Shown here piece by piece: positions 4,334 through 43,784 of a DNA stretch of 43,991 bases. Origin of the DNA: a virus; IMG/VR virus record IMGVR_UViG_3300025543_000057, positions 1 to 43,991 of that record. One strand, written 5' to 3'. A program made the translations under genes and the position numbers. The notes under the pieces were generated by a model that worked only from the letters and a program-made list of their open reading frames with translations, was not told where the DNA came from and did not search any database. The stretch's first letter is position 1. Each line of letters begins with the position of its first letter.

Positions 4334-4346
4334 CAAACCAGACAAG

Positions 4347-4376
4347 CGCCAGTCCCGGATTTGTCGGGGCTGTCAG
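4347..4376 (+). other. Possible hairpin in the portal-scaffold gap
   Basis: The 144-nt gap between portal and scaffold genes contains a short inverted repeat, AGTCCCG and CGGGGCT around a 7-nt loop (one G-T pair). Two short T-rich runs follow about 30-45 nt later. It is too weak to call a terminator; it may tune read-through or protect the scaffold mRNA. Confidence 0.3.
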
Positions 4377-4477
4377 CGCGCCCCACATTCTGACCCTTTT
4401 ACCGTATTTTTTGGTTGCGGACACCGGCAGACAAAACCAAAGTCCCCCCGACAGGCCACACCCTCGACGGAGCAACG

Positions 4478-5596
4478 ATGGACAATCCTGAATTAGATGC
4501 AGGCGTAAAAGACCCGACCGATACCTCGCCAGATCCGGTCAAGGACAGCCAACCCGCCGACACCCCGGCGGACCCGCCCTCGTCCAGCGGGACGGACCAA
4601 CCGGACACACCGGCCAAAGGTGAAGACCCCAAGTCGATGGCTGACGCCATTGATGCGGCGCTGAAAGCGGCACCAAAGGAAGACGGCAACCTCGCCCCCG
4701 AAGGCGACCCCGAACCTTCCGAAGATGCAGGCGAGCCCAGCGATAACACCGACGGAACCGATCCGGAAAAGCCCAGCGAACCCGTCGAAGACGGCCACGA
4801 AAAAACGGAAGACGACGATCCGACAGACGAAGAACTCGCCAAAATGAGTTCGGGATCACAGAAGCGGATCAAGCAACTTCTCTCACAACGCAATGATGCA
4901 CGCCGTGAAACGGAAGCACTGCGGACCGACGCTGGCAACTACCAGCAGGTCCGGGAGTTCATGACGCAAAGCAGGCTGGAAGACCGCGAAGTCGCGGAAC
5001 TATTCCAGCTTGGCGCGGACCTGAAATCGGGCGATCCCGCCCGCCTTCAACAGTTCGTCCAGCGCGTCATGCCGACGTTGCAGGCTGTTATGGAAGCAGT
5101 CGGCCAGTCGGTCCCCTCTGACCTTGCCTCAAAGGTCGAAGCTGGGGATATGACCGAAGACGCGGCCAAGGAGTTGGCCCGCTATCGCTACGAGGCGCAG
5201 ACTGCCCGAGAACAGGCAACCCGCGCAAACGAAGCGAACGCGACCCGCGTCACGCAGGGCCAGCAGGCCGAAATCATGAGCGCCGTAGAGACTTGGCAAT
5301 CGTCCACCCGAACCCGTGACCCCGACTTCGACATTAAGGCCGACGCCATGAAGCGCGCAGCGCAGGCAATGGTCGCGGAACGCGGACTACCCCGGACTTC
5401 ACAGGAAGCCCTCTCGATGGCCCAAGAAGCCTACCGAGAAGTCAACCAGTGGTTCAAGTCCGCCCGCCCTGCGTCCAAACCCACAACTGCGACCCCCGCT
5501 TCCGGCGCATCGGCGAACCGGACCGGAATGAACCCCCAAGCAACCTCGCTCGATCAAGTGATCGCGCAGGCAATGGCGGCGTCTTCCCGGTCCTGA
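4478..5596 (+). CDS. Scaffolding protein
   Basis: The 372-residue protein is encoded between portal and major capsid genes, the usual scaffold site. The first 130 residues are very acidic and rich in Asp, Pro, Glu and Ser. The middle (about 135-310) is charged, Gln/Ala-rich helix likely to form coiled coils, and the C-terminus is Ala/Ser/Thr-rich with some basic residues, as expected for the part that binds coat protein. Scaffolds direct procapsid assembly and then leave or are degraded. I chose the ATG at 4478, which has an ACGGAG ribosome site 5 nt upstream; an in-frame TTG 21 codons earlier has none. No protease motif is seen. The assignment is by position and composition. Confidence 0.85.
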   Translation: MDNPELDAGVKDPTDTSPDPVKDSQPADTPADPPSSSGTDQPDTPAKGEDPKSMADAIDAALKAAPKEDGNLAPEGDPEPSEDAGEPSDNTDGTDPEKPSEPVEDGHEKTEDDDPTDEELAKMSSGSQKRIKQLLSQRNDARRETEALRTDAGNYQQVREFMTQSRLEDREVAELFQLGADLKSGDPARLQQFVQRVMPTLQAVMEAVGQSVPSDLASKVEAGDMTEDAAKELARYRYEAQTAREQATRANEANATRVTQGQQAEIMSAVETWQSSTRTRDPDFDIKADAMKRAAQAMVAERGLPRTSQEALSMAQEAYREVNQWFKSARPASKPTTATPASGASANRTGMNPQATSLDQVIAQAMAASSRS

Positions 5597-20200: not shown

Positions 20201-21079
20201 AAGAAGATCATCGAAGCGGAGTTCCGCGACCTCGGGGTCCAGCCGGAGCAGTTCGACGCCGTGGTGGATTGGCTGGGGCAGTCGGACAGCCTGCCGACGC
20301 CGGAGGATATGCGGTCCAGCACCGGGAAGGTGATGGCCCTCGCGCTGGCCCGGTTCACGGACCAGACGATCCAGAACCCCCGGCGGATGGACAAGGCCCT
20401 GTCGGCCACAAGCCCCATCGGGCGGCTGACCTTCGGTCTCATGTCGTTCTTCTACACGTTCTTCCGCAACGTCCACCAAGCGACCTATTTGCGAGCCAAA
20501 CGCAACTACGGGATTGCCAAGGGGGAGGGCGAAAGCACGACGACGGCGGCCATGCAGGCTGTCGCCCCGGCTCTCGCCACTCTCGGCGGCGGCTTCGCCA
20601 TGATGTTCGCCGGGCAGTTCCTCATCTCAATGCTGCGCGAAGCGATCTACAACCCGGAGCAGTGGGAGAAACACGAAAAAGACGACGACCTGTCGGATTG
20701 GCTGATCAAGCTCGCTTGGTCCCGGACCGGCATATATGGCCCAGCGGACCCGCTCATCAACGCCATGACCGGCTTGCGCTACGAGCGCGACGTGGTGAAC
20801 CTCGCCGCAGGGCCGGGCTTCTCTTACCTCATGTCCAACGTCCAGAATATCTTGAAGCTGTGGACGCGCAACTCGCCGAACACGAACACCGCAGAACACA
20901 CCGCTGCCAAGTCCGCCTATCGGATGGCCTTCGCCCCGGCGGCGGCTTGGGCCTTGTCGGCGATCCCCGTCGGTGGGCCGGTTGCTTGGGCCGCTCGCTA
21001 CGGAGCAATCGGTCTGGCGACTTCCAACGCGGCGTCCACCAAGGCGGCCGACGTGGTTGCTGGCCCCAAGAAAAAGTGA
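14222..21079 (+). CDS. Giant polyvalent ejected protein (2285 aa) with ParB-like and LPD1-like metallopeptidase regions
   Basis: The N-terminus has L-P-x-G-F-V-L-D units (at about 11, 46 and 358), a Gly/Ala-rich membrane-active-looking segment (about 150-205) and a P-Q-V-Q-P repeat linker (about 384-428). Residues ~455-700 resemble the DarB/DdrB-type ParB domain of polyvalent proteins (E-L-D-A-L-I, Q-P-R-D-R, D-x-G-x-P-I-I and I-L-S-G-N-G-R-A). Residues ~1020-1290 resemble the LPD1 domain, with the zinc-peptidase-like H-E-W-M-H-A-L-D-H at 1145-1153. The C-terminal third is long helices with hydrophobic patches, similar in outline to LPD38-type tails. Polyvalent proteins are thought to enter the host with the DNA and counter host functions (Iyer and colleagues). 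It ends the late structural run. The roles are inferred; domain limits are approximate. Confidence 0.85.
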   Translation: MNAMNAIDDQLPPGFVLDNAPVAPPVVPPVVPAVATSVPPSVATKAPPDLPEGFVLDTPDMPDDGPGFWEAAGNALVRGKNNYLDQPLNVGGYLTGALSPTDAATAIIQDYTEAQAAPMTTDGARAMENLDKNGVWNTLKDDFPGVASATGQTALEAAAGLPGMFAAAGVGAAAGTAATLNPAGTVIGGALGAGSVSGATEFASIIVEALTNTGVPVTQENVTKLLSDPEFMSAAKSEALRGGAIVGGFDALTAGMAGRIFGPVRRVVAPHTGKIGSGVVGAGAEVAVQSAGGAGGEAAKQLANDGGISSPGSVFMEAAAEIPGSAIEIPGTVKAIRTGEGLVKPQPAPDPALAPDLPEGFVLDPPQGQTEQVAPPTEQVVPEPQVQPQVQPDPQVQPDPQVQPEAQVQPQVQPQVQPDPQVQPDPQAPVQRGYPTGKSEKVVTPDGSFEFDTDFEVVELDALISATGDLQPRDRGDRTQSDTQISDNARKLDPARLLSSRESDRGSPIIDETNTILSGNGRAASILEAMRLHPDRYAAYLKRLKDEGYLTDGMKAPVLVRRAAALSPDQKVLLARRSAAAADQTLSPSERANLEKNYITEDMLKEFNSDVTEGVGAAANAPFFRTFMRSVPQAEQNALLGAANELTPAGVQRVTAALFSRAYDNKNLIRRAVEQGVDKQITNGLTAAAPAWARMRDALKRAGKEKQFDMTQVLVEALELINEAGTKGMNFANFMKQLDAFRTIDPKAAAAARLFLNEQQTRLASADTIRDRLQRYAARAEGLTKAEDDIFGGGPADATAIVAEIVAGLDSTAKGQPVDPGDTPTPATTTKPEAEPKLAGRTEVEAEPPRDRVFGPRLTTAKNPFPGYAGPVTLATDAKGRRLYFWRNEGSGGAAGAGEYGMTLLTPDDKEVSVEAGLRGEMTGEYSLIATEVAFLAGELDSLIDDLWASAKTKTKTQTKPETKAQPGSELFPGSEVTSTGPMQGRKAAKGQAPASGALLDAPDTGPQTRVPRGAMSPKTSEVSFTNRAAIYEDAFRVAGIDPDRGQLLPPERKLRVLADVLEKVFGFKVNIKTDLSVPDAVNQMLDAYRNIRFMMHALALPVQAISLQGRLTLSLERFKGQYLGMYSLADHTIHMPGRSNSFAHEWMHALDHYLGDTLTPKFKDLLSRITRSEGLDPSDNLQSAFINLIHKLFFDEAALAVQMLRLETEANATIKKGPKAGQPTQAALAAQKSLERLAAGATRIRVQPSAYRQDAAKYDPSSDYFPSVHEMIARAFEAYTAFKVETAGGSNEFITKGDQNYLSDADRRLQMTFPKSHERLAIFSAFDDVFHHIRTQAILGVGPAEPLPVDQDITDPSKWTKIAAFRDGQGVVAALKEEAFKLRNALRVLRLQPLKQTLKASASEVAINAGIGATATSPKSMKQGITDVWDAMAKIVRSGRGIAKMIVLRQPEKSQPFLQWIVNRLTTDPGTGREDQVATWEEAAGNQTNIDTTELQAALVSNGMSGRIKKDASMRLRKLMLGQTVPGASTAEIAVAALLRRLMDKAWQAASAAGVGIGYVRNTGYLPRVILREEVQNRLQEFTAAAKQVYLKQFDHITDGINAADLLAFAKGVMSEFEPAVAKVTKTGKLAPPYQNLRAAIRVLDNATALHDANPTAQTRADKAQAKAAVDAAIARLLAALRDPFATTSAKAWGHRILAGDSFSYDSHGPNTNFAKTRTLVPEADDILGDAGFYDTDTVHGAVTYLHQVNKRTSYQERFGMSSGPKFLSDILRREDIQDAMQQNPRKYDPDTSAGAFNIIRDLANPQVDDIKEMMVNEAVKWGANGGDAQYLRGLVEKITGRSGGDPLIKPYEALSSTIAIYTFIALLPRATLTAITEPIATMMRTGSVKASVQTLGMYVMEAVRSAKSTQERQALAEAIGVVSTALHDTVLLNRLSGDHGNVVSGNVVMTQFFRAIGLTQLTNAQRRAAMAGGFYWLRDLAKQYATTDNVKKKIIEAEFRDLGVQPEQFDAVVDWLGQSDSLPTPEDMRSSTGKVMALALARFTDQTIQNPRRMDKALSATSPIGRLTFGLMSFFYTFFRNVHQATYLRAKRNYGIAKGEGESTTTAAMQAVAPALATLGGGFAMMFAGQFLISMLREAIYNPEQWEKHEKDDDLSDWLIKLAWSRTGIYGPADPLINAMTGLRYERDVVNLAAGPGFSYLMSNVQNILKLWTRNSPNTNTAEHTAAKSAYRMAFAPAAAWALSAIPVGGPVAWAARYGAIGLATSNAASTKAADVVAGPKKK
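15372..15505 (+). repeat. Tandem Pro-Gln-Val-Gln-Pro coding repeat
   Basis: About ten short units built on CAGGTCCAGCC, in two spacings (12 and 18 bp), encode the flexible linker between the N-terminal part and the ParB-like region of the giant protein. Copy number probably varies by slippage or recombination. Confidence 0.9.
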
Positions 21080-21153: not shown

Positions 21154-21441
21154 GCTGCGATGCTGCACAAACGTCCACTTCGTAGGCCGGGGACAGACAC
21201 CGATCTACAAAGAATTATCTAAGGATTTCAGGGGGTTGTGATGGTGCTGCCGGAGAGAATTGAACTCTCGACCTCTCCCTTACCAAGACAGAGGTCGGTT
21301 TCGTTGGCCGACAAATAAGCCATTGAAATCCTTAAAATCCGGGTCCGTGGACCTGTTGTGTTGGTTTGTAGGTGGACAAAAACGCGCTGCGATGCTGCAC
21401 AGGTCCGGGGCAATTGTCCATTGCGCTGCAATGTGCTGCAC
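21154..21441 (+). repeat. Repeated arm-like sites around the attP core
   Basis: GCTGCGATGCTGCACA occurs identically at 21154-21169 and 21386-21401, with a degenerate third copy at 21425-21441. An 11-bp inverted pair, TAAGGATTTCA, lies at 21220-21230 (+) and 21324-21334 (-), closely flanking the tRNA-like core. Repeated short sites on both sides of a core are what tyrosine integrases and excisionases bind in attP arms. Binding is inferred, not shown. Confidence 0.6.
21242..21287 (-). other. Probable attP core: 3' fragment of a tRNA-Thr(GGU) gene
   Basis: Read on the minus strand, this holds an anticodon loop TTGGTAA (anticodon GGT), the 3' side of the anticodon stem, variable loop AGGTC, a perfect T-arm (GAGAG-TTCAATT-CTCTC), acceptor CGGCAGC, discriminator A and CCA. 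The 5' half of a tRNA (GCTGCCG plus D-arm) is missing: the DNA upstream of the loop is unrelated. A tRNA 3' end without its 5' end in phage DNA is the classic sign of attP, where integration rebuilds the host tRNA. Flanking repeated sites support this. The integrase gene, however, lies more than 11 kb away. Confidence 0.75.
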
Positions 21442-31743: not shown

Positions 31744-31860
31744 GAGGCCCATGTCTAGGGAGCGGACGGCCCAAACAGCCCCGGGTCCGCTTCTTTCATC
31801 GGCCCCTGTGTGGGGGTGGAGGGTCTGTGCAACAAGGAGGCCGCTAGGCGGTTTGATGTT

Positions 31861-32277
31861 ATGGGTAGAGCAAAGAGTAATGCGCAGCGCGTCGAGTTAG
31901 GTAATTTTGGACAGAACCTTTATCGCGCGAGGCTGGAGGCCGGGATGTCCCAATCCGATCTGGCCCGCAAAATATGGGGCACAACGAAGGACAACAGGGG
32001 CTACATCGTGGCCCGGAACCGGGACCGGGTGTCCGCCTATGAGCGCGGCAAGGCCCAGCCCACCCATGAAAACCTGACCGCCATTGCGAAGGCGCTGGGC
32101 GTTACGGTCGAAGATTTGGCTCCGGACCTGCTGGCAGCGGACATGGGTGCCGAGGCTCCGACAATAGGCATGACGATGGTCAAGAACCGGCACGACAGAG
32201 TGCATTTGCAGGTCAACACGATTACGAGCTTGGAAAAAGCCTCGCAGGTGATTGCTCTCTTGAGCAAGGGCGAGTGA
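31861..32277 (+). CDS. XRE-family phage repressor
   Basis: The 138-residue protein has an N-terminal XRE/Cro-CI helix-turn-helix (about 15-85): F-G-Q-N-L-Y-R-A-R, M-S-Q-S-D-L-A-R-K-I-W, then an unusual insert of about 15 residues before R-V-S-A-Y-E-R-G-K-A-Q-P and L-T-A-I-A-K-A-L-G-V-T-V-E-D-L. It has no LexA/CI Ser-Lys self-cleavage domain, so induction must differ from lambda. The C-terminal 45 residues may dimerise. The ATG at 31861 has no ribosome site close by (AAGGAGG is about 20 nt away), so the repressor may be made from leaderless mRNA, like lambda cI. It is divergent from the Cro-like gene and followed after 1 nt by the excisionase-like gene. Confidence 0.82.
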   Translation: MGRAKSNAQRVELGNFGQNLYRARLEAGMSQSDLARKIWGTTKDNRGYIVARNRDRVSAYERGKAQPTHENLTAIAKALGVTVEDLAPDLLAADMGAEAPTIGMTMVKNRHDRVHLQVNTITSLEKASQVIALLSKGE

Positions 32278-32278
32278 C

Positions 32279-32608
32279 GTGGACCTTTTGACGCAGGCCG
32301 AGACGGCGAAGCTGTTGGGGCGGACGACAAAATACGTCGCCCGGCTTCGCGCCGAGGGCCTACCTTTTCTGCCGGGTCGGCCCGTGATGATTTCGCGGGC
32401 GGACCTTGTTGCTTTTGTAGAACAACGCAAGGAAACAAAACAATGCAAATCCCCCAAAGGGTTGAGGACACAAGGCTCGAAAAGAACCGTTCGGGTCGGT
32501 ACGAAGTCCGCTGGACAGAGCGCGACGGACAAGGCCGTGCTAGAACGAGAAGCCACTCGTGCGGCACTGAGGACCGCCAGTTGGCAGAGGAAGTCCGTCG
32601 TGCGTTGA
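32279..32608 (+). CDS. Excisionase-like HTH protein
   Basis: The first 53 residues form a MerR/Xis-type winged HTH ('HTH_17' pattern): L-L-T-Q-A-E-T-A-K-L-L-G-R-T-T-K-Y-V-A-R-L-R-A-E-G-L-P-F, then R-P-V-M-I-S-R-A-D-L-V-A-F-V-E. This is the standard DNA-bending excisionase or DNA-binding layout beside an integrase. The GTG start has AAGGGCGAG upstream. The C-terminal half overlaps the integrase in another frame for 166 nt and looks basic and unstructured, so the true function may lie in the N-terminal domain. It may direct excision at attP or assist int expression. The repressor-xis-int order suggests one transcript. Confidence 0.7.
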   Translation: MDLLTQAETAKLLGRTTKYVARLRAEGLPFLPGRPVMISRADLVAFVEQRKETKQCKSPKGLRTQGSKRTVRVGTKSAGQSATDKAVLEREATRAALRTASWQRKSVVR

Positions 32609-33510
32609 TGGGTGCCGCTGCGCAGGTTGCCACGTCGGCGCACCGGGTCCGGTTGGGGGCGTTGGTGGACAAATATGTGACGCACCACGTCGAAATCAAC
32701 GGACTATCAGACAGTCAAAAGTGGGCCTTGAAGCCGATCAAAGCGGCGCTGGGGCGGTTGTTCGTATCGGACGTGACGACTTCGGAGGCGGTGGGCTACC
32801 GCCGGGGGCGGGCGGGGACCGTGAAGGACGCGACGATCCGCCGGGAGTTGGGTGCGCTGCAAGCGGTCTTGAAGTGGGCTGTCAAGGCTGGCGAGCTGGA
32901 CCGGGACACTGTGCTGCCGCATGTGCCGCTGCCGCCCGCGTCGCAGCCGAGGGAGATCTATCTGGACCGGGAGGCGGAAGCGCGTCTGTGGGCGAAGGCC
33001 GAGGGGTTGGTGCTTCGGCCGGGGGTGCCGTTGGGCCAGAAGCGGATCGGTGTGTTTGTGTGTCTGGCGCTTGAGACCGCCGCGCGGGCGCGGGCCATCG
33101 AAGGGTTGACGTGGGATCGGGTACATCTGACCGGAGGGTTGATAGATTTCAGGGAACCGGGGCGGCGGGTTACGAAGAAGAAGCGCGTCGCGATCCCGAT
33201 CTCGGACCGGCTTCGGCCCGTGTTGGTGCATTGGTTTGCCTTGTCCGGGGGCGCGGGCCAGAACATCGCGACCGGGCCGGTGCTGTTGTCCACCGGCTCG
33301 GCCCGCAAGGCGTGGGAGAGGTTCCGGGCCAAACACGGCTTTGATGGTGTCACGCGGCACAGTCTGCGACATACGTGGGCCACCTTGAAGTTGCAGCGCG
33401 GCGTGGACATTTGGCAGGTCGCCGGGGTGCTGGGGGACACGGTGGAGATGGTGCAGCGGGTCTACGGCCACCATTGCCCGGAGAACCTCCGCAGCGCAGT
33501 GAACGCGTAG
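32443..33510 (+). CDS. Tyrosine integrase
   Basis: The 355-residue site-specific recombinase joins attP to a host att site. The N-terminal part (to about 60) is an AP2-like arm-binding type segment (R-L-E-K-N-R-S-G-R-Y-E-V-R-W), followed by a SAM-like core-binding domain (about 65-170). The catalytic domain has Arg215 (T-A-A-R), Lys in V-T-K-K-K-R (about 246-250), H-S-L-R (His306, Arg309) and Tyr341 in V-Y-G-H-H. The usual L-G-H box is L-G-D here, as in many related phage integrases. ATG 32443 has AAGGA 9 nt upstream. The likely attP, a tRNA-Thr fragment, lies near 21.25 kb and not beside the gene. Confidence 0.93.
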   Translation: MQIPQRVEDTRLEKNRSGRYEVRWTERDGQGRARTRSHSCGTEDRQLAEEVRRALMGAAAQVATSAHRVRLGALVDKYVTHHVEINGLSDSQKWALKPIKAALGRLFVSDVTTSEAVGYRRGRAGTVKDATIRRELGALQAVLKWAVKAGELDRDTVLPHVPLPPASQPREIYLDREAEARLWAKAEGLVLRPGVPLGQKRIGVFVCLALETAARARAIEGLTWDRVHLTGGLIDFREPGRRVTKKKRVAIPISDRLRPVLVHWFALSGGAGQNIATGPVLLSTGSARKAWERFRAKHGFDGVTRHSLRHTWATLKLQRGVDIWQVAGVLGDTVEMVQRVYGHHCPENLRSAVNA

Positions 33511-33528: not shown

Positions 33529-33545
33529 TTGACAGATGGGACATG
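33529..33545 (+). promoter_or_regulatory. Degenerate GACA-type motif, copy e
   Basis: TTGACAGATGGGACATG follows the integrase stop by 18 nt and precedes the primase gene. A second related site, GACACAAGCGACAGA, is at 33587-33601. Together they form a pair of weak copies ahead of the primase-helicase gene. Confidence 0.4.
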
Positions 33546-33632
33546 CGGGGCGTCTTTTGGCGGCCCGTGTGTCGGTTTTGCAGAGCGACACAAGCGACAG
33601 ATTTTATTGGAACCATATCAGGAGTAATACAG

Positions 33633-36077
33633 ATGAACGGAATAAGTCCGGAGTTGCGGGTTTTCCTGCAAGGGGTATTTGGGGACAGGGCAGACGAGGC
33701 GTGGCTGGCGGCGTTCAGAGACTTCCCGCCGAAGCCGGGGGATTGGACCGGGAAACGGGCAGGAGATTGGGCGGGGATGGACCCGGAGGCAGCCCTGAAC
33801 GAGTTTTTCTGTATATCTTTGATGAAGCCGGGCGCGGGAGCGCGGAGGGAAGCGAACATTGAGGGCCACTGGCTGATTGTGGCAGACGACATAGGGACCA
33901 AGGCCAGCCGGGAGGATTGGGAGAGATTGATCGGTGCGGGTTTCCCGCCGCCGTCATTCAAGATAGAGACTTCGCCGGGGAACGAAACATGGGGCTGGTT
34001 GCTCCGGGCGATGGTCCCGTTGGGGTCCAAGCAGGAAGCCGACGTGCGGCAGGTCCGGGCGTTGATGGCCGCGCGAGGCTTGTCGGACGCGGCGGTTGTC
34101 GTGGACCCGACGCGGTACATCCGGTTGCCGGGTGGGTGGAACTCCAAACCGAAATACGCTTTGGAAGGCGGAGGGTTCCCTTGGGTTTCGGCTGTGGAAC
34201 TGGAATTGGGTCGTCGGGCCGATCTGGAAGACATGGGCCGGGCGCTGGCCGGGGAGAACTGGCGGACGGAAGTGTTGCCCCTGGCTTTGACGCCGGGCAA
34301 GAAGCTCGGGGGCGCTGGGGGAGATTTGGACCGATCAGCGGACATGAACGCGCCGGAGCCGATCATCCAGTTGGCGCAGGAGGTGGGCATGGCCCCGGTC
34401 CAGATCAGGCAGGGCGTGGTCGAGGCGAGGTGCCCCAATGCGGACCAGCACACGGACGGGCGTCCGGACGGGTTCGCTTTTTTGGGTGCAGGCATAATGC
34501 ACTGTCAGCACGACCATTGCTCAAGTTTGACGACGATGGACTTCCGGCGAATGATTTGCGAGGCGTTCGATGATCAGGAGGCCGTGCGGGCTGCGGCCGG
34601 GGCGGCTGTGGGCGTGACTGTTGCGCCGAGGGTAGCGAACGACTTTCTGGCCGTGGCGGACTTTGCGCAGCACGGGGGTCTGGGGCCTGTGGCCGAGGAT
34701 GAAGTGTCCGGCTTGGCCGAGGCAATGGCCGGGCGGGTTGTCGCTGCGCGCCTGAAAGCCGAGCAGGACTTCGACGCGGCTGTGGGGGATTTGGCGAAGC
34801 GGTTTGTTTACGTGCGTTCTGCGGACGTGTTCTTCGATTTGCAGGAGCGGGCCGTCATAGCGCGGGCCGTGATCGACACCCATGAGGAAGTCCGTGCCGT
34901 GATCCCGTTCGGGTCCAACGGAGCCAAGAAGGCAGTCAACGTCCTGATGAACCACCCGGACTTGATGACCGCTGCGACATTCACCTATGCGCCGGGGGCG
35001 CTGGGGGTGCTGGTCAAGACCCGGAACGAAAGCGGCGTGGACGTGTCCGCTGCGAACCTGTGGACGCCGACGCGGATCGGACGCCGGAAGGGCGAGCCGA
35101 CGAAGTGGCTGGAGCTGGTCCGGCACATCATCCCGGCGGAGAACGCGCGGAACGCATTTTTGGATTGGATGGCGTGGGTTGTCCAGAACCCTGACAAACG
35201 AACGCCGATCATCCCGCTGTTGATCGGGGACCAAGGCACCGGCAAGGACACAATGATCACGCCGCTGATCCAGATAATCGGGGCGCACAACGTATCGACC
35301 GTCAATGCTGCGGACATGCGGTCCGGGTTCAACGGCTGGATGCGCCGACGGTTGGTCGTGTTCGACGAGCTGAAACTGTCCGGGGACGATCTCTACAATC
35401 AGATCAAAGCGTGGACCGGATCACATGAAACGCTGGTCGCGATCAACACCAAGTTCGAGCGGGTCTGGTATATGATCCCTGTGTCAGTGTTCATCGCCAT
35501 GTCCAACCATGACGATGCGCTGCAAGGGGCCGAGGCGGACGACCGGCGCTGGATGCCGTACAAGTCCCCCGCCGTGAAGATGCCTCCGGAGTGGTACGCG
35601 GCAATGAAAGACGCTGTGGGGTCCGTGGACGAACTGGAACGGGTCCATGAGTTCTTCATGGCGCGCGACGTGAGCCAGTGGAACGCCTACGGTGAAGCCC
35701 CTAACTTCGACAAAGCCGAGGTATTGGCCGACGGCCTGAACTCTCCGACGCGGTTTTGTTATGTGGCGTTGACCGAGGGGGTTTTTGCGAACCGGACGTT
35801 GGTGACACTGAAAGAGGTCGAAGACTATGCTGCTGCATTCGGCCATGCGTCCGTGAAGAACCGGATAAACTCAAAGCATGTGCAGGACGCGTTGAAGCAC
35901 GCCGGATGCCAATCGTTGGGTCGGCAGATACGAGTTGGCGGACAGATTGTCCGGCTCTGGCATGGGCCGAAGACGAAAGGGCGGACCGACTTGCGGACTT
36001 TCATGGACGGCATGGAGCCGTCCGTTGTGTCTGCGATGTTCGTGAAAGAGGCCGAAGGGGCGCTGGGCATAGCGTAA
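33633..36077 (+). CDS. Primase-helicase (prim-pol-like N-terminus, SF3 helicase C-terminus)
   Basis: The 814-residue protein combines replication initiation activities. The first ~200 residues fit a RepB/AEP-type prim-pol (K-A-S-R-E-D-W, V-V-D-P-T-R-Y-I-R-L-P-G-G-W-N). A His/Cys cluster (C-P-N-x-x-Q-H and H-C-Q-H-D-H-C, about 270-300) may bind zinc. The C-terminal half is a D5/SF3-like helicase: Walker A G-D-Q-G-T-G-K-D (532-539), Walker B V-V-F-D-E-L (about 575-580) and a sensor-like F-I-A-M-S-N-H. It opens the origin and primes the polymerase. I chose ATG 33633 with CAGGAG 8 nt upstream. A terminator and AT-rich DNA follow its stop. Confidence 0.9.
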   Translation: MNGISPELRVFLQGVFGDRADEAWLAAFRDFPPKPGDWTGKRAGDWAGMDPEAALNEFFCISLMKPGAGARREANIEGHWLIVADDIGTKASREDWERLIGAGFPPPSFKIETSPGNETWGWLLRAMVPLGSKQEADVRQVRALMAARGLSDAAVVVDPTRYIRLPGGWNSKPKYALEGGGFPWVSAVELELGRRADLEDMGRALAGENWRTEVLPLALTPGKKLGGAGGDLDRSADMNAPEPIIQLAQEVGMAPVQIRQGVVEARCPNADQHTDGRPDGFAFLGAGIMHCQHDHCSSLTTMDFRRMICEAFDDQEAVRAAAGAAVGVTVAPRVANDFLAVADFAQHGGLGPVAEDEVSGLAEAMAGRVVAARLKAEQDFDAAVGDLAKRFVYVRSADVFFDLQERAVIARAVIDTHEEVRAVIPFGSNGAKKAVNVLMNHPDLMTAATFTYAPGALGVLVKTRNESGVDVSAANLWTPTRIGRRKGEPTKWLELVRHIIPAENARNAFLDWMAWVVQNPDKRTPIIPLLIGDQGTGKDTMITPLIQIIGAHNVSTVNAADMRSGFNGWMRRRLVVFDELKLSGDDLYNQIKAWTGSHETLVAINTKFERVWYMIPVSVFIAMSNHDDALQGAEADDRRWMPYKSPAVKMPPEWYAAMKDAVGSVDELERVHEFFMARDVSQWNAYGEAPNFDKAEVLADGLNSPTRFCYVALTEGVFANRTLVTLKEVEDYAAAFGHASVKNRINSKHVQDALKHAGCQSLGRQIRVGGQIVRLWHGPKTKGRTDLRTFMDGMEPSVVSAMFVKEAEGALGIA

Positions 36078-36144
36078 AAGCCCGGCGCACAAGGGTTTCG
36101 CGTTAATGGCTGAAACAGGTGAAGTACCATGTACGTAACGACAG

Positions 36145-36181
36145 AGCCGCCTGTGACAAAAATCGTCACAGGCGGCTTTTT
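36145..36181 (+). terminator. Intrinsic terminator after the primase-helicase gene
   Basis: AGCCGCCTGTGAC and GTCACAGGCGGCT form a perfect 13-bp stem with a 7-nt loop, followed by TTTTT. It ends the rightward replication transcript and marks the left edge of the accessory block. Confidence 0.95.
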
Positions 36182-36414
36182 CACCTCTCAGATGTTACTT
36201 TTGGTGGTACGGGTTGGTGTTACAGAGCTAAACCATTGAAAACACATAACAACTACTTCCTATTTTTGATAGAGTAACAGTAAAATCATATATATATATA
36301 TATTCTCTATATGAGCGATTTTTTCCTTATTCTGTGGTGTATGTGTGTGTGTGGGGAAGTTTCCTCAAAAACGGGGTTTAGGTGAAGCAGCGTGACACTT
36401 CCTCTTTTCGGCCC
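36182..36414. other. AT-rich non-coding region, candidate origin
   Basis: This gene-free stretch contrasts with the GC-rich genome. It has an eight-unit AT run (36288-36303), several T-runs, a TTTTTTCC stretch and a GT run around 36340-36355. It lies between two convergent genes, right after the primase-helicase gene, where an easily melted replication origin could be. No clear iterons were seen by eye. Confidence 0.4.
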
Positions 36415-37041
36415 CTAAATGATCCCCATGTCCCGCGCTTTGCGCACGGCGGAAACCCACGGACCGACCTCTCCTGTGTCCGCGTGATGCAGCCATCCCC
36501 GGACCAACTCGAAGGACAGCATGTGGCAAAGCTGCGTCCACGTCATGTTGTCGTAGAGGACTTTGTTGACGACTGCCCGCTCATCGTGCCGCGCGGCCCA
36601 CACGGCCTTGAACGTCGGGTCCATCACGAGCGCCACCGGCAGACGGCTGCGGGCGACCAATTCTTGGACCAATCGACGCGCAGCCGCCGGTCGGGACTTG
36701 ATGGTCCGCCTCTCTTTTTGCGGCCGGTTGACGAAGATGCGGTGTTCGGTGTCCGTCAGATGGTGTCGGCAGTGTTCGGCTTTCCGCACGGCGGGTTGTT
36801 TGCAGTCCGGCAATGCGCAGCGGCGCAGGTTGGGACCACTCCACTGCGTTGCCCCCCTGTGGTCCTCCAGAGCCTGTTTAGCGCGCTCGGTGGGGGCGAC
36901 GGTCCGGGAGGACCGCTTGCGCTGCGTCGCCACCCCCGGCACCTTGGGGACCGCTGTGTCAATCATCGCTTTGTCCAAGAAGTGAAGAAGACCCTGCGGG
37001 TCCGTCGGTATCTCTTTAAGGGCTGTCCGGGTGGAACCCAT
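36415..37041 (-). CDS. Orphan zinc-finger-like protein (208 aa)
   Basis: It is the only leftward gene in the rightward half and is not recognised. Residues 1-70 are basic and disordered. Residues 75-94 hold a C-x4-C-x10-C-x2-H site (Cys75, Cys80, Cys91, His94, with an extra His93) that could bind zinc. The rest is helical with F-V-N-R-P-Q-K-E-R-R, R-R-L-V-Q-E-L-V-A-R and Trp/His-rich segments. The site suggests nucleic-acid or protein binding. I chose ATG 37041 because CAGGAGT lies 8-9 nt upstream; a longer in-frame extension would run through the GC repeat. It is divergent from the MoxR-type operon and may be a moron or regulator expressed in lysogeny. Confidence 0.7.
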   Translation of the reverse strand: MGSTRTALKEIPTDPQGLLHFLDKAMIDTAVPKVPGVATQRKRSSRTVAPTERAKQALEDHRGATQWSGPNLRRCALPDCKQPAVRKAEHCRHHLTDTEHRIFVNRPQKERRTIKSRPAAARRLVQELVARSRLPVALVMDPTFKAVWAARHDERAVVNKVLYDNMTWTQLCHMLSFELVRGWLHHADTGEVGPWVSAVRKARDMGII

Positions 37042-37132
37042 CGCGCCTACTCCTGATTTTGTTTTGCGGGTTGTTTGCCTGATAGGTATCGACTTCACCA
37101 GACAAAGCAACCAAAACGGCGGGTTGTTTGCC

Positions 37133-37195
37133 CCGGACCCGCCGGACCCGCCGGACCCGCTCGCCGCGCTCGCCGCGCTCGCCGGACCCGCCCGG
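37133..37195 (+). repeat. 9-bp GC-rich tandem repeat
   Basis: Four-plus copies of CCGGACCCG and three of CGCTCGCCG sit in the gap between divergent genes, all in 9-bp period. It lies 32 bp before a copy of the regulatory motif. It may be slippage-prone DNA or a protein-binding array. Confidence 0.85.
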
Positions 37196-37226
37196 CGCTT
37201 TTGTCGGTAGTGTTGCCCCGTTGCGC

Positions 37227-37243
37227 TTGACAAAACAGACAAA
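37227..37243 (+). promoter_or_regulatory. TTGACAAA-N3-GACAAA motif, copy f
   Basis: TTGACAAAACAGACAAA lies upstream of the MoxR-type operon. As a -35 box it has a CTAAAG-like -10 at 17-bp spacing, so this copy could be a promoter as well as an operator. Confidence 0.6.
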
Positions 37244-37329
37244 CGCCATCTAAAGATGTGGTCCCGGCGCATTTGTGGCCGGGGAGGCGGCAGCTATGCC
37301 CGTCGCGATCCACGAAAGGGACCAACCCA

Positions 37330-37413
37330 ATGCACGACTTTCTCCACGACCTCGCAGCCGCAACGGCCATCACTTTCTTGATCTTTGGCGTTTGCGCGCT
37401 GGCTCTCATCTAA
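37330..37413 (+). CDS. Possible 27-residue membrane peptide
   Basis: A short frame with GAAAGGGA about 9 nt before the ATG encodes a His/Asp-containing N-terminus and one hydrophobic segment (about 10-27). It stands 23 nt before the MoxR-type ATPase gene. A second tiny membrane protein ends the same cassette. The evidence is only the ribosome site and topology. Confidence 0.45.
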   Translation: MHDFLHDLAAATAITFLIFGVCALALI

Positions 37414-37436
37414 CCAATCCACAAGGAACCGAAACA

Positions 37437-38981
37437 ATGACTAACACTACACTTACAAAGACTGCCCGCACGATCCTTCGCTCTCGCGTCCGGCGACATG
37501 CCGAGGCGCTTAAAGCTCTGGACGGTCGCAAGGTGTCGGACCTGACGAATGCGGACCTGATACAAACCGCGCTTCTGTTGGGCCTTGTTATTCCCAGCCC
37601 GCGCGAATGTGACGCTTACGACGAAGCCAAAGCCAATGGTGAGCCGGTCCCCTTGAACCGCGCCGATGCCATGGCCTCCCGGTTGGGCTTTGGCGGTGAT
37701 GGTCTGGTTTACGTCGGCCCGGCGTCCGGCGCGCAGGCCAGCGCGGCGGGAAACGCAGCAGACGACGAAAGGCCGTCCAGCAATCCGGAAGACGACCGGG
37801 AACATGCTGAATACACAGTCACCTTGGACCTGTCGCCTGTAGACCCTGTAGACAAAGACGCCGCAGCCAAAGCGGACATTAAGCAGCAAGCCAAAGACAG
37901 GGCCGCAGCAATCCGTGAAAAGTTCGGTCGCGGCGATTTCGCCGGGTTCATGACGGACCTCGAAGCACTCGCTGAGACCGCGCTGACGCCACCACCCGCG
38001 CCCGTCGTCCGGATGGTCGGATATGTTGACCCGTCAAAGATCAAAGGGCAGGTGCCGCAGATTACCGGCGATCAAACAATGAAGGGCGCAGGTATATCTG
38101 CCCTTTGGAACGTGACAGACGCTAAAACGACCATGCCGACATATGACGCTGTGGACGCGCCCGGCGTTGATCCAGACTACATTTGGCCCGACCAGACCGG
38201 CCCGGCGCTGGCGGCAATGGCGCGCGGCGCAAACGTCTTGTTCTGGGGCCCAGCCGGGACCGGCAAAACGTCGTTCCCGCAGCAGGTCGCTGCTCGATGG
38301 GGTCGGTCGTTTGTGCGTGTCTCATGCACCGAAGACACCGAAGCCTCCACGCTGGTCGGCATGACTGTGCCGGACACGGCGTCCGGCGGCGTCAAATGGC
38401 AGGACGGCCAATTGGCGGCAGCGATCCGCAAGCCGGGCACGGTGATCTTGATTGACGAACCGAGCGTTGCACGACCCGGCGCGCTGTTCGTCATGCAAGC
38501 CCTGCTTGACCATGACCGCGCAATATATATCGCCGAGACCGGCGAGGTGGTCCGCTGCGCGCCTGACGTGGTGTTTGTGTTAGCCGACAACACCAACGGC
38601 ACCGGCGACAACACCGGCAGCTATGAAGGCACGCGACGGCTAAACCGCGCTTTTCTGGATCGGTGCGCGCTCACGGTCCATCTGGACTATCTGGCCCCAG
38701 ACCGGGAGGCCGTGGCGCTGGTTGCCCGGACCGGCGTTTCCCGCAAAGCCGCCGCCGCGCTTTGCAAGTTCGCGGCGCTGACGCGCGCAGATGCGGATAA
38801 AGGCAAAGTATCGCACGGGATCGGCTTTCGCCGCTTGCAGGCGCTCGCCGAGACTATCGCTTGCGGCGTTGACCCCGCGCAGGCGTTCCAGTTAGCCGTT
38901 CTGGAGACCGCGCCCCACGACGACGTGGAGCCGCTCCGGCAGCTCTGGACCAGCGACGTTAACGCCTCTGTATTTTCATAA
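37437..38981 (+). CDS. MoxR/CobS-type AAA+ ATPase
   Basis: The 514-residue protein has a ~200-residue N-terminal region with Ala/Asp-rich low-complexity sequence (90-165), then an AAA_5/MoxR-like core: Walker A G-P-A-G-T-G-K-T (271-278), Walker B V-I-L-I-D-E-P (336-342) and an A-D-N-T-N-G-T-G-D sensor I loop. MoxR-type ATPases act as chaperones with a VWA partner, as in CobS-CobT cobalt chelatase and gas-vesicle or NorQ-D pairs. The next gene encodes such a partner. ATG 37437 has AAGGAACC 7 nt upstream, nearly the same leader as the partner. The function in a phage is unknown; it may act on host metalloproteins or in lysogenic defence. Confidence 0.88.
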   Translation: MTNTTLTKTARTILRSRVRRHAEALKALDGRKVSDLTNADLIQTALLLGLVIPSPRECDAYDEAKANGEPVPLNRADAMASRLGFGGDGLVYVGPASGAQASAAGNAADDERPSSNPEDDREHAEYTVTLDLSPVDPVDKDAAAKADIKQQAKDRAAAIREKFGRGDFAGFMTDLEALAETALTPPPAPVVRMVGYVDPSKIKGQVPQITGDQTMKGAGISALWNVTDAKTTMPTYDAVDAPGVDPDYIWPDQTGPALAAMARGANVLFWGPAGTGKTSFPQQVAARWGRSFVRVSCTEDTEASTLVGMTVPDTASGGVKWQDGQLAAAIRKPGTVILIDEPSVARPGALFVMQALLDHDRAIYIAETGEVVRCAPDVVFVLADNTNGTGDNTGSYEGTRRLNRAFLDRCALTVHLDYLAPDREAVALVARTGVSRKAAAALCKFAALTRADADKGKVSHGIGFRRLQALAETIACGVDPAQAFQLAVLETAPHDDVEPLRQLWTSDVNASVFS

Positions 38982-39004
38982 CACAACAACAAGGAACCAA
39001 ACCA

Positions 39005-40963
39005 ATGACCAACACACCATCAACCCACAGCCCCAGCCTTTACGATTTTTCTGGCCGGGTGGTTTACTCGGACTTCGTGTCCGCTGCTGAAAAGACAATG
39101 CGCGCTATTTTGGCGCGCACTCAAAGCGGACGTTACCACCTCAAGATCACGCCCACGGGCGGAGAAAGCGCCTACGTGTCCACGTCCGGCGCTCAGACGT
39201 TCGATGTGGGCCTCCCCTCGATCCCAATGGACACTGTGATCACCGCAGAATATGCCCGGCGATTGCTGGCGTTCTTGATCCACGAGCTATGCCACGTTCT
39301 CGCCACCGACCTCGGCTTGTTGGGGGATTTCCACCGCCGCACGTTTCCCCTCGGCGTTACGACCCAGCTTGCCGCCGAGCTACTCAACCAAGTGGAGGAT
39401 TATTATATAGAGCGGGTCGCCTCGGACCCGCGCGGCCCGGTCGTCCAAAACGCGCCCGCGCTGCTTGGCTATCTTAACGACGTAGTCCAACAGCCCGGCG
39501 GTGCGCTGGCGGCGATACAAGCCACCCCGGCGGCCCGGCACGATCCCTTCCGGGAGGCGCAATGGCTGCTTTGCGCGCTGATCAATCGCCACGGCTGCCA
39601 GATTACGCCCGCGCTGGACCAGTACGCAGCCGACACGCAACAGGCGGCCACGCCCGCAGTCATGGTCGCAGTTCGGGAGGCGCTGACCGCGCTGGACATC
39701 TGCGCGGACAAGCTCGGACCGATTACTCCACGCGATCAGCACCGCGCCCAATCAGTTGACCGGCACAACATCACCTTTCGACTTATTGAGGCTCTCGCAA
39801 AAGCCAACAAGCCCAAGGACAAGGACAAGCCCAAGGACAACAACAAGCCCAAGGACAACAACAAGCCCAAGGACAACAACAAGCCCAAGGACGAGGACAA
39901 AGGCAAAGGCAAACCCGGCGAAGGCGACAAGCCCCGCGAAGGCCAACCCGGCGAAGGCCAACCCGGTGAAGGCGACAAACCCGGCGAAGGCGCAGGTTTA
40001 GCCGGACCCAGCCCACAGGCGAAGCAGACCGCGCTGGCCGCCGTCGCGCCAAACCTGACGCGACAACAGCGCGCGCAGGGCGCATCTACTACGATGGGGT
40101 CCGCGACACTTGCGGACCCGGCGAATGTCGCAAGTTTCCGGCGCAAAACATGGATAACGACCGAGAACAACGGCGAAGCCTACGCAGAGACGACCCGGCG
40201 GGTCGCCGCCGCTGTGGACGCCCGTGCGACAGCCGACGCATTTCGGCGCGGTCTGCAATCCGTCGAAAAAATCGTCACGCAACGGCGTTTGCAGTCTGGC
40301 AGGCTGGACCGTCGCGGACTGATGCGCGCTGCGACCGGCGCAAAAGATGTGTTTTCCCGCAGTACCATCACGCCCGGCGTGGACACGGCCGTTCTAGTCA
40401 TGGTCGATGCGTCGGGGTCGATGGGTAACGTAGAGATACTTCGCACGCCCGATGGGGAGATGTACGCTTCGCGCTGGCAAGCCGTTATTGGTGTTCTGGC
40501 GGTGATCCTGCCAGCACTTGACCGCGCACGGGCGCAAACCGCAGCGTTTGGCTGGACCGGCGGCATCCCTCGGCGCTCGGACGACGAAAGGGCGACTATC
40601 TTTCCGCTCAAGCCGTGGCACCAGCGCCCGCGCACTGTGGACCTGCTTGATGCTCTAGGACGGCAGCGCGGCCACGGCGGGACACCGATGGCCAAAGAAG
40701 TGCGATGGGCTCAGGAGGATATCAAGTCCCGCCGCGCCGACCGGCGCGTGGTTCTTTGGTTGCATGACGGCACCCCGAACGACGGCGACGGCACACGGGA
40801 GGCTCTAAGGATCGCGCGCGCGCAAGGCGTCGAACATTATGGCATAGGGATTGCTACATCTGCCCGCAAGACGTTCGGCTGGCGCTATTCGGCGGACGTG
40901 GATGACCTTGGGAAACTGCCAAAGGTGCTGGAGACCATCCTCCTGCAAGGTGTCCGTACATGA
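39005..40963 (+). CDS. CobT-like VWA protein with HExxH site and repeat linker
   Basis: The 652-residue protein begins with a metallopeptidase-like region: H-E-L-C-H (93-97) and N-Q-V-E-D-Y-Y-I-E-R about 30 residues later, where CobT-like proteins have a conserved Asn/Glu. A linker of Lys-Pro-Lys-Asp units and Gly-Glu-Gly units (about 268-335) leads to a C-terminal von Willebrand A domain whose MIDAS is D-A-S-G-S (468-472), with a later G-G-T-P and H-D-G-T-P. It should be the partner of the MoxR-type ATPase 23 nt upstream. Whether the HExxH motif is catalytic is unproven. The ATG has AAGGAACC upstream, and its stop overlaps the start of a 40-residue membrane protein. Confidence 0.88.
   Translation: MTNTPSTHSPSLYDFSGRVVYSDFVSAAEKTMRAILARTQSGRYHLKITPTGGESAYVSTSGAQTFDVGLPSIPMDTVITAEYARRLLAFLIHELCHVLATDLGLLGDFHRRTFPLGVTTQLAAELLNQVEDYYIERVASDPRGPVVQNAPALLGYLNDVVQQPGGALAAIQATPAARHDPFREAQWLLCALINRHGCQITPALDQYAADTQQAATPAVMVAVREALTALDICADKLGPITPRDQHRAQSVDRHNITFRLIEALAKANKPKDKDKPKDNNKPKDNNKPKDNNKPKDEDKGKGKPGEGDKPREGQPGEGQPGEGDKPGEGAGLAGPSPQAKQTALAAVAPNLTRQQRAQGASTTMGSATLADPANVASFRRKTWITTENNGEAYAETTRRVAAAVDARATADAFRRGLQSVEKIVTQRRLQSGRLDRRGLMRAATGAKDVFSRSTITPGVDTAVLVMVDASGSMGNVEILRTPDGEMYASRWQAVIGVLAVILPALDRARAQTAAFGWTGGIPRRSDDERATIFPLKPWHQRPRTVDLLDALGRQRGHGGTPMAKEVRWAQEDIKSRRADRRVVLWLHDGTPNDGDGTREALRIARAQGVEHYGIGIATSARKTFGWRYSADVDDLGKLPKVLETILLQGVRT
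39809..39996 (+). repeat. Lys-Pro-Lys-Asp and Gly-Glu-Gly coding repeats
   Basis: Several exact AAGCCCAAGGACAAC units followed by GGCGAAGGC-type units encode the charged linker between metallopeptidase-like and VWA regions. Exact DNA copies point to recent expansion. Confidence 0.85.
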
Positions 40964-41082
40964 GCGCCCGGCGCACTATCCAGACCCGCACCCGGCGCAG
41001 GCTGGCCGGGGAACTGATCGACACCGCCTGTTTTATCGCGGCGCTGTTGTTCGTCGTGCTGGCGGTCGCTGGGCTGCTCTGA
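40960..41082 (+). CDS. Small membrane protein (40 aa), coupled to the VWA gene
   Basis: The ATG overlaps the VWA stop (ATGA). The 40-residue product has a strongly basic N-terminus with seven Arg in the first 14 residues, then one hydrophobic segment (about 22-40) reaching the C-terminus. This suggests an N-in tail-type anchor. Coupling to the MoxR/VWA pair suggests a membrane partner. It is the last gene before a terminator. Confidence 0.6.
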   Translation: MSARRTIQTRTRRRLAGELIDTACFIAALLFVVLAVAGLL

Positions 41083-41100
41083 TCAAACCCCAGAACGATC

Positions 41101-41116
41101 TGTGACAAGTGTCACA
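41101..41116 (+). repeat. Short inverted repeat before the terminator
   Basis: TGTGAC-AAGT-GTCACA is a perfect 6-bp inverted repeat 15 nt upstream of the cassette terminator. It could be a regulator site or part of the 3' mRNA structure. Confidence 0.5.
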
Positions 41117-41130
41117 TTCCGCGAAACCGA

Positions 41131-41156
41131 AGCCGGGCGCATTGCCCGGCTTTTTT
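41131..41156 (+). terminator. Intrinsic terminator at the end of the MoxR/VWA cassette
   Basis: AGCCGGGC and GCCCGGCT form an 8-bp stem with a 5-nt loop, followed by a run of T's. It marks the right edge of the accessory block and separates it from the packaging/tail genes. Confidence 0.93.
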
Positions 41157-41217
41157 GTTGTCCCGGTCCCGGTCCCGCCGGTATCAATGCTGGACCAGCA
41201 ACAGGAGACCGCCACCA

Positions 41218-41565
41218 ATGGCACGCAAAACCGCACCCAAAACCAGCCCTGAAATCGGATCTTTCGCTTCGCCGGACCCGACAATAAAGGTCAGCAATGC
41301 TGACCTTAATTCTGGTGTTTTGGACCTTTCGGGATATAAAAGCCCGTCTGACCGCCTCTCGGATGACGCTGATTTAGCAAAAGAAACGCTGCGGCAGGTG
41401 TGTCGCGATCCAGCCGCCCCGGCAGCGGCAAGAGCGCAGGCCGCGCGGACGCTGGCGGAAATGTCTGGCGCGATTGGACGCAATGCCAGACCAGCGCCCG
41501 AGCGCGGCAAACCGGTCAGCGAGCTGACGCGCGACGAGCTGGAAGCCGAGCTGGCAGGCATATGA
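41218..41565 (+). CDS. Terminase small subunit (candidate)
   Basis: The 115-residue protein has a disordered N-terminus and a helical C-terminal half with L-R-Q-V-C-R-D-P-A-A-P-A-A-A-R-A-Q-A-A-R-T-L-A-E-M-S-G-A-I-G and E-L-T-R-D-E-L-E-A-E-L. Short terminase small subunits of alphaproteobacterial phages show this A-A-R-A-x-A-A-R-T-L-x-E pattern. TerS binds the packaging site and loads TerL. The ATG at 41218 has CAGGAGA 9-10 nt upstream. It lies about 3.4 kb (circular order) before TerL with fibre and lysis genes between, an arrangement partly like T7. It lacks a clear HTH, so the call is by pattern. Confidence 0.6.
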   Translation: MARKTAPKTSPEIGSFASPDPTIKVSNADLNSGVLDLSGYKSPSDRLSDDADLAKETLRQVCRDPAAPAAARAQAARTLAEMSGAIGRNARPAPERGKPVSELTRDELEAELAGI

Positions 41566-41942: not shown

Positions 41943-43784
41943 GTGGCCGAACCAGTACCTTCTAAACGCACACGACAGAAGTCGTTTACCAACCATCAGG
42001 CGACGCAGCCCACCGTGCCGCTCCCCGGCACGTCCGTGGACAGCGAACTTGACGCCTCCAACGACGTAATCAACACGACCATCGACTTTGTTCGGCAGGT
42101 GATCAGCGACACCGGGACCATCAAACCGGCGGCGGTTGCCGCCGTGGACTTCGTTGGCGCGGAGGGGGCGCGAGGCCCGCAGGGAGTGCAGGGGGACACG
42201 GGCGAGCAGGGCGTTCAAGGCATCCAAGGGCTCACTGGCACAACCGGCCCGCAAGGTGCGCAGGGTGTTCAGGGCATCACCGGCAGTACAGGCGCGCAGG
42301 GCGCAACCGGCCCGACCGGACCCACCGGGCCCCAAGGCATTGACGGACCGACAGGCGCAACCGGCCCGACAGGCTCCGACGGCCTCGCGGGCGCACAGGG
42401 CGACACCGGAGCGACCGGGGCAACTGGCCCGACCGGCCCGACCGGACCCCAAGGGGTTGACGGACCGACAGGGACCACCGGCTCTACCGGCTCGCAGGGC
42501 ATCCAAGGCGTCCAAGGCGTCACCGGCCCCCAAGGCAATTCTTTCACCCCGGACGCCATCGGCCCCGCCGCATCGAAATCCACCTACGACGCGGAACTCG
42601 CGGACTTCGCGTTCCTCGACGCCACCAACGGCATCATCTACTTCAAACTCTCGGACACCTCCGGCGATTGGTCCACGGGCGCTTACTTCGGCAAGGGTCC
42701 GCAGGGCATCCAAGGCATTCAGGGCGTCCAAGGCATCGACGGACCGACCGGCCCGACGGGCGACACCGGACCTCAAGGTATCCAAGGCATCGACGGACCG
42801 ACAGGTCCGACAGGCGCAACCGGCCCCACGGGCGCAACTGGCCCGCAAGGCATCCAAGGCATCGACGGTCCGACCGGCCCCACAGGGTCACAAGGCATAA
42901 CCGGCGACACCGGCCCAACCGGACCGCAGGGTATCCAAGGCATAACTGGCGACACCGGCCCTCAAGGTATCCAAGGCATAACTGGCGACACCGGCCCCAC
43001 AGGGCCACAAGGCGTTCAAGGCGACCAAGGCGTTCAAGGCATAACTGGCGACACCGGACCCACCGGGTCTCAAGGCATCCAAGGCGTCGACGGACCCACC
43101 GGACCTACCGGCCCGACAGGCCTCACCGGGCCGCCCGGCCCCGACGGGCCGACAGGCCCAACAGGCGCAACCGGCCCCGAAGGCCCGGTCCTCGCCCGGC
43201 TCGCAACGACCGCGCAACTCCTGACAGATTGGAACAGCGTCACCGAAACCGGCTGGTACAAGGGCGCGTCGATCGCGAACAGCCCCACGGCCTCAAGCTA
43301 CATAGGCTTCGTGTTCGTCTACGACGCGAGCAACCAAGTCCAGATACTCTACAACCAGACCGTCGCGGCCACGCTCGGCGCGTCCTACGTCCGGCGCAAG
43401 ATCGGCGGCGCGTGGGCGGCTTGGACCGAAAGCACCCCGGTCCAGAAGAACGTGGACACGACCCTCCAAGCAGGCTACGTCTTCGGCACCACAGTGGACG
43501 ACGGCACCAAGTCCAGCGTCACCTACACACCGACCCCCGTGGCGGGTAACTGGCGCAAGGCTGTCAACGGCGGCGCGTTCACGCTCGCGGCTCCCACCGC
43601 AGCGGGCGACTACAGCCTGTCCATTCTCATCACCAACAATGGGACCGCCGGGGCCATCACGCTGTCCGGGTTCACTTCTTCGGACGGTGACGCCTTTACC
43701 ATCACGGACACGCACAAATTTATCTGCCACATCGCGAAGATCGACGGCAACACCTCCGTGACTGTAAAGGCTCTACAGGAATGA
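41943..43784 (+). CDS. Collagen-like tail fibre protein
   Basis: The 613-residue protein has an N-terminal segment (1-70) with [13 protein letters not shown] and a helix, as expected for attachment to the tail. Residues ~72-200 and ~250-417 are Gly-X-Y collagen repeats ([12 protein letters not shown]) that form a triple helix; a ~50-residue globular insert (about 200-250) breaks them. The C-terminal ~190 residues form beta-rich domains with [10 protein letters not shown] and W-T-E-S-T-P, likely trimerisation and receptor binding. The GTG has CCGGAG 9 nt upstream. The following gene starts in its stop (ATGA). It probably binds host surface polysaccharide. Confidence 0.9.

Follow-up and report, generated by a model that had tools for sequence, protein, structure and literature searches.

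A viral 'CobS-CobT' pair in a temperate tailed phage is probably not a cobaltochelatase

Neighbouring genes for an AAA+ ATPase and a von Willebrand factor A (VWA) protein have been described in viruses under two conflicting readings. A viral cobST pair was described as widespread, with cobT called 'mistakenly annotated as a peptidase' (PMC8651126, 2021), whereas a jumbo-phage pair of the same architecture was read as a MoxR-VWA system with an N-terminal metallopeptidase, serving virion assembly (PMC7824862). A MoxR-VWA-peptidase is therefore not a new idea, having been proposed earlier in jumbo phages; phage genome and ecology papers nevertheless routinely read the pair as vitamin B12 metabolism. 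In NorQD, a finger goes into the pore of the ATPase and ATP-driven rotation stretches a linker (PMC13036017). Here, the pair was analysed in IMG/VR record IMGVR_UViG_3300025543_000057, which in full is the stretch of 43,991 bases referred to as the window, and which belongs to a temperate tailed phage. The window encodes a 514-amino acid ATPase (37437-38981, + strand) and a 652-amino acid VWA protein (39005-40963, + strand). A first-pass annotation had recognised a MoxR-VWA pair but missed its identity with the well-known viral 'CobST' pair. The window pair is this already known viral pair under a usual name that is probably wrong, and it is probably not a cobaltochelatase; with moderate confidence, we favour a protein remodeller like NorQD and Rea1 that carries a zincin-like N-domain.

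Profile matches support the assignment of the pair to MoxR-class AAA+ and VWA proteins. The ATPase falls in the CobS/CbbQ/NorQ (MoxR) group, matching PHROG_249 (1.7e-56; CobS, 'porphyrin biosynthesis'), Pfam AAA_5 (1.2e-15, 58.1 bits) and CbbQ_C (23.8 bits vs a cut-off of 20.6), and has an intact Walker A motif at residues 271-278 (GPAGTGKT), as first annotated, and an intact Walker B motif (VILIDE). Its gene has a strong ribosome-binding site, and the leaders of the ATPase and VWA genes are near-identical (ACAAGGAACCGAAACA-ATG and ACAAGGAACCAAACCA-ATG). The N-terminus of the ATPase (R..LR..R.HP...LT..DL...LG) may resemble SAP/HeH-like domains. The ATPase scored 92.7 bits on the CobS equivalog TIGR01650, far under the cut-off of 558.55. 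In an unrooted tree of 38 phage ATPases, 22 cellular CobS and one related cellular protein, in which several long branches meet, a 100/100 branch separated all 38 phage ATPases from the cellular proteins. The CobS of Devosia sp. 66-22 grouped with the cellular proteins and the ATPase of a prophage in the same genome with the phage proteins; the window ATPase is therefore not a recent copy of a host CobS. Being unrooted, the tree does not show whether the viral or the cellular form came first.

The VWA protein matches phage CobT families (PHROG name 'aerobic cobaltochelatase CobT') and consists of an N-terminal zincin-like domain (39068-39772, + strand), a K/D/P-rich linker, a finger and a VWA domain with a metal-ion-dependent adhesion site (MIDAS). 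Both motifs reported in the first-pass annotation were found, HELCH at residues 93-97 and the MIDAS as DASGSM. HELCH is followed by E131, D132 and E136, so that HExxH and the downstream glutamate ligand that define a gluzincin in sequence are both present. HExxH followed by ED..xE at the window spacing arose in 1 of 20,000 composition-preserving shuffles, and the two elements were kept in 50 of the 52 VWA proteins scanned, a set that includes the window and Microcystis phage Mae-Yong1326-1, one duplicate and several near-identical pairs. The same motif was seen in most of the 16 reference phages with a VWA partner that were checked, among them the archaeal virus HHTV-2 (SHEVQHH...VLEDNHID), which is among the viruses underlying the chelatase reading. 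Across 42 viral N-domains, seven columns are invariant (A, P, H, E, H, D, E), five of which (H72, E73, H76, D111 and E115) lie in the zinc motif. The predicted N-domain structure (predicted local distance difference test (pLDDT) 85) had zinc metallopeptidases as 10 of its 12 best VIA-align matches (Z 5.0-5.9), including selecase, jannalysin, abylysin, Ste24, ERAP1, M48 and M61. Motif and model are suggestive of a predicted gluzincin-type zinc site; peptidase activity is something we infer from the motif and weak fold evidence only. L122 and L124 encode the two domains on separate open reading frames (ORFs) that adjoin each other, one for the zincin-like N-domain and one for the VWA domain, as reported for HHTV-2. 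PF13203 (DUF2201_N) was tried as a link to cellular metallopeptidase-VWA proteins and rejected: none exceeded the cut-off in 41 alphaproteobacterial genomes, and the 42 viral N-domains gave one weak match only.

The C-terminal part of the VWA protein resembles NorD and Rea1. The finger (GRLDRR) and VWA/MIDAS domain (40169-40960, + strand) have invariant G-R..R, D-x-S-x-S, T and D positions; the MIDAS is complete, with D, S, S, T and D invariant in 27 sequences, and Pfam VWA scored 26.4 against a cut-off of 23.8. In the predicted model (pLDDT 88), a finger extension of the NorD/Rea1 type precedes the first strand. Foldseek returned NorD as the top match (E 1.3e-12), over NorD residues 382-645 (Z 16-19), and VIA-align returned the Rea1 MIDAS domain as the best (Z 21.2), both alignments taking in the finger. 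As the finger, linker and ATPase parts are also present here, a NorQD-like working is proposed for the window pair, in which the machine would remodel proteins at the expense of ATP like NorQ-NorD, CbbQ-CbbO and Rea1/Midasin. The ATPase would form a hexameric ring on which the VWA protein docks with its finger in the pore, and the MIDAS metal, or the region adjoining it, would grip an acidic residue on the target. Powered by ATP hydrolysis, the VWA head could then twist relative to the N-domain at the other end of the long flexible linker, and the N-domain, with its predicted gluzincin-type site, would either cut the loosened target or hold it.

Several observations weigh against a NorQD/Rea1-like remodeller with a zincin-like domain. 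The profile scores of the ATPase are nearly equal for CobS (118 bits), CbbQ (113) and NorQ (110), so the ATPase alone does not decide among the three. HExxH has been lost in Pseudomonas phage nickie and Stenotrophomonas phage ANB28, and the VWA protein of ICP2 has V for the third ligand; catalysis is thus not required in all members, and the loss in nickie and ANB28 indicates that the zinc site can be dispensable. The VIA-align Z-scores of the N-domain reach at most 6.6, under the aligner's trust level of 8, and a Foldseek search of the N-domain against PDB gave no significant match (E 0.9 or worse).

HExxH was found in none of 25 alphaproteobacterial cellular CobT proteins. Profile alignment nonetheless joined the viral and cellular CobT N-domains (probability 94.6, E 7e-8), pairing N..ED..xE with ALEQARVE, whereas controls with reversed columns and unrelated profiles gave E 0.55-0.83. 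The simplest account of these sequences would be one N-domain family whose zinc site is present in most viral members and lacking in the cellular ones. A further step, which we regard as doubtful, would make viral 'CobT' proteins zinc proteases driven by ATP, and the cellular cobaltochelatase motor CobST a shallow, protease-dead offshoot of a diverse, mostly viral family of remodelling proteases. In that case, the label 'B12 auxiliary metabolic genes' would be wrong for hundreds of phage genes. Should the viral pair prove to be a remodelling protease, the metabolic inferences drawn from it would be wrong and a common phage machine acting near replication genes would await its target; the window's temperate phage and the related Devosia prophage offer a small, testable example.

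The distribution of the pair bears on what that target might be. ATPase matches were found in 494-513 phage records (of 50,697). A search of viral contigs for relatives of the VWA protein with a single sequence found none, whereas a search with the ATPase alignment succeeded; wherever a close viral contig extends far enough, a VWA partner gene adjoins the ATPase gene. An ATPase without a VWA neighbour was seen in Listeria phage LP-031, Acinetobacter phage Bestia and Mycobacterium phage Loadrie. Among isolates, DnaE is near the pair in six phages, gp46/45/44 in cyanophages, a DNA polymerase in BS162P1, and a primase or helicase in ICP2, Chidiebere and the window. By raw count, the commonest PHROG among contig neighbours was primase. 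These neighbours point to a replication module as the likely setting of the pair, and because the pair is repeatedly beside replication genes, a replication or recombination complex would be a first guess at the target of the proposed remodeller.

In the window, the slot of the pair lies between a primase-helicase gene (33543-36077, + strand; PHROG_1156 2.6e-25, Pfam DUF5906 and RepB_primase) and a probable small terminase gene (41218-41565, + strand). The latter has a ribosome-binding site but no PHROG or Pfam match, and is named from its position; its homologues are 56% identical in L001, 52% in L004 and 48% in L032. The pair occupies the same slot in the four next-closest readable relatives (L079/L001, L002, L003 and Mae-Yong1326-1), inverted relative to its flanks in Mae-Yong1326-1. 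No ATPase match was found anywhere in the 43-kb record of L032, where the primase and small terminase genes are ~900 bp apart. From its absence in L032 and its presence in the four others, the pair is accessory across greater distances but kept stably by close relatives. This set of relatives is partly biased, as some were found via the ATPase search; a terminase-anchored search is free of that bias.

The slot also bears on a role in virion assembly, suggested for group 2.2 jumbo phages (PMC7824862), in which the machine would act as a chaperone-peptidase in the maturation of capsid or tail components; this has perhaps a modest chance of being correct. The architecture described there is the same, a MoxR protein with a VWA protein fused to an N-terminal metallopeptidase, and primase and packaging/fibre genes flank the slot in the lineage of the window. 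However, most isolates carry the pair among replication genes rather than virion genes, and it is missing from L032, whose terminase, portal-position and major head genes are homologous.

It is improbable that the pair acts as CobS and CobT together with a host CobN, raising cobalamin for nucleotide synthesis (PMC8651126), although the PHROG names, the homology of the viral N-domain to cellular CobT and the presence of CobN in the Devosia host agree with this. No match to the CobT equivalog TIGR01651 (cut-off 759 bits) was found at E 0.1 in the window and three relatives, whereas the CobT of Devosia itself scored 889, and the ATPase fails the CobS cut-off and is split from cellular CobS as described above. 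HExxH is kept in viruses and missing from cellular CobT. CobN was found in none of 28 viral records, the window included, and the ribonucleotide reductase large chain in just three of them. Among 14 control genomes, CobN was absent from E. coli, B. subtilis and Caulobacter, yet the pair, its motif intact, is present in PhiR41_1, a phage of E. coli. The Devosia host already encodes CobS and CobT of its own alongside CobN. As a separate observation, the Caulobacter vibrioides control has a CobT over the TIGR01651 cut-off yet no CobN-family match, so even in cells CobT may sometimes work outside a cobaltochelatase.

The pair lies in a unit (36143-41160) comprising, in order, a leftward zinc-site gene, a tiny ORF, the ATPase and VWA genes and a 40-amino acid membrane ORF. 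The two intrinsic terminators reported to enclose it were both upheld by folding against 200 shuffles. Terminator 1 (36143-36183) is a bidirectional 15-bp stem (36143-36157/36165-36179, -30.4 kcal/mol) with a T-run on the + strand; its z was about -6.1 to -9.9 (+ strand -6.9, - strand -6.1), with 0/200 shuffles as good. A simple scan had caught just a fragment, and the folding test recovered the whole stem. Terminator 2 (41129-41160, + strand) closes the unit with a stem of 11 pairs (41129-41153) and a T-run (z -2.6, 0/200 shuffles as good). A promoter scan upstream of the ATPase gene gave no convincing candidate. Between terminator 1 and the leftward gene, positions 36290-36360 are AT-rich with (TA)n and (TG)n runs.

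The leftward gene (36415-37272, - strand) carries the zinc site first reported for it, with the pattern C-x4-C-x9-C-x2-H. Its conserved part is the C-terminal half and its true start is uncertain; it has no Pfam match, and homologues on the minus strand of the same slot were found in L003 (29%) and the Devosia prophage (26%). In L032, positions 4112-4480, directly upstream of the small terminase gene, encode CxQPAVKG..C.QHGG, which resembles the zinc-site motif of the leftward gene. The tiny hydrophobic ORF upstream of the ATPase gene (37330-37413, + strand, 27 amino acids) exists, but may not be a gene because none was found at that position in the 8 relatives checked. The second small membrane ORF (40960-41082, + strand) overlaps the VWA stop, as annotated, through an ATGA. 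This ATGA overlap recurs in L079 (34 amino acids) and L082 (40 amino acids), whereas L085 has a membrane ORF at +50 nt and L003 has none, so that a general membrane anchoring of the pair finds no support. The unit is arranged likewise in the Devosia prophage, down to the leftward gene and the overlap of the membrane ORF.

The first-pass annotation had taken this unit for a phage moron. Its own terminators, and the absence of the pair between the same flanks in L032, are what a self-contained unit would show, and the pair is accessory, inverted in one relative and carried by a temperate phage; all four next-closest readable relatives, however, keep it near replication genes, half of what had been named as counting against a moron. 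T4-like cyanophages and ICP2 are regarded as lytic. A moron for lysogenic conversion or superinfection exclusion is the least probable explanation, since the pair is widespread in such phages and no PADLOC defence match was found at E 0.01 (an absence that does not exclude a defence role), and these two functions, like host metalloprotein remodelling, found no support.

Beyond the unit, the window encodes a transcriptional repressor (31810-32277, + strand) and an integrase (32443-33510, + strand; PHROG_1, 6e-46), together with a DNA polymerase, helicase, RuvC-type resolvase, exonuclease, large terminase and major head protein. A 29-bp attP core (21259-21287) perfectly matches tRNA-Thr(GGT) of Devosia sp. 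66-22, whose genome carries the collinear prophage of ~49 kb, bordered by 50-bp direct repeats within the tRNA-Thr gene (contig C23, 17703 and 66660). Integration of the phage at tRNA-Thr is well supported by this identity and by the repeat-bounded prophage. A 2285-amino acid tail-region protein (14222-21079) matches in its C-terminal part a giant protein of Mae-Yong1326-1 annotated as peptidoglycan transglycosylase, and a tail fibre (41943-43784) has long collagen-like GPT/GIQ repeats (Pfam Collagen 4e-45).

Compared with known systems, the window pair shares with that of group 2.2 jumbo phages (Iyer et al. 2021, PMC7824862) the architecture of an AAA+ ATPase and a VWA protein with an N-terminal metallopeptidase, by description only, and those phages belong to another class. 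Cellular CobS-CobT resembles it in being a gene pair with a homologous N-domain, a charged linker and a C-terminal VWA domain, but cellular CobT is without HExxH, the phage ATPase falls outside the CobS clade and CobN is not encoded by the phage. NorQ-NorD (PDB 9qh6-9qhg) is like the window pair in its ATPase profile match and its finger/VWA fold. The MIDAS domain of Rea1/Midasin shares the VWA-plus-insert fold (Z 21), but Rea1/Midasin is a single giant polypeptide, unlike the two-protein pair of the window. The target of NorD is cNOR; we know of no HExxH N-domain in NorD, unlike the window VWA protein, and of no zincin domain in Rea1/Midasin. In Mae-Yong1326-1 (OP028995), the two genes are adjacent as in the window, the ATPase is 59% identical over the core and the VWA protein has a like motif (HETLH...NCLEDVRIE). 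Its slot likewise lies between small terminase and replication genes, but the module is inverted, and ORFs of 74 and 29 amino acids follow the VWA gene in place of the single 40-amino acid membrane ORF of the window; this pair was published as the cobaltochelatase CobS-CobT.

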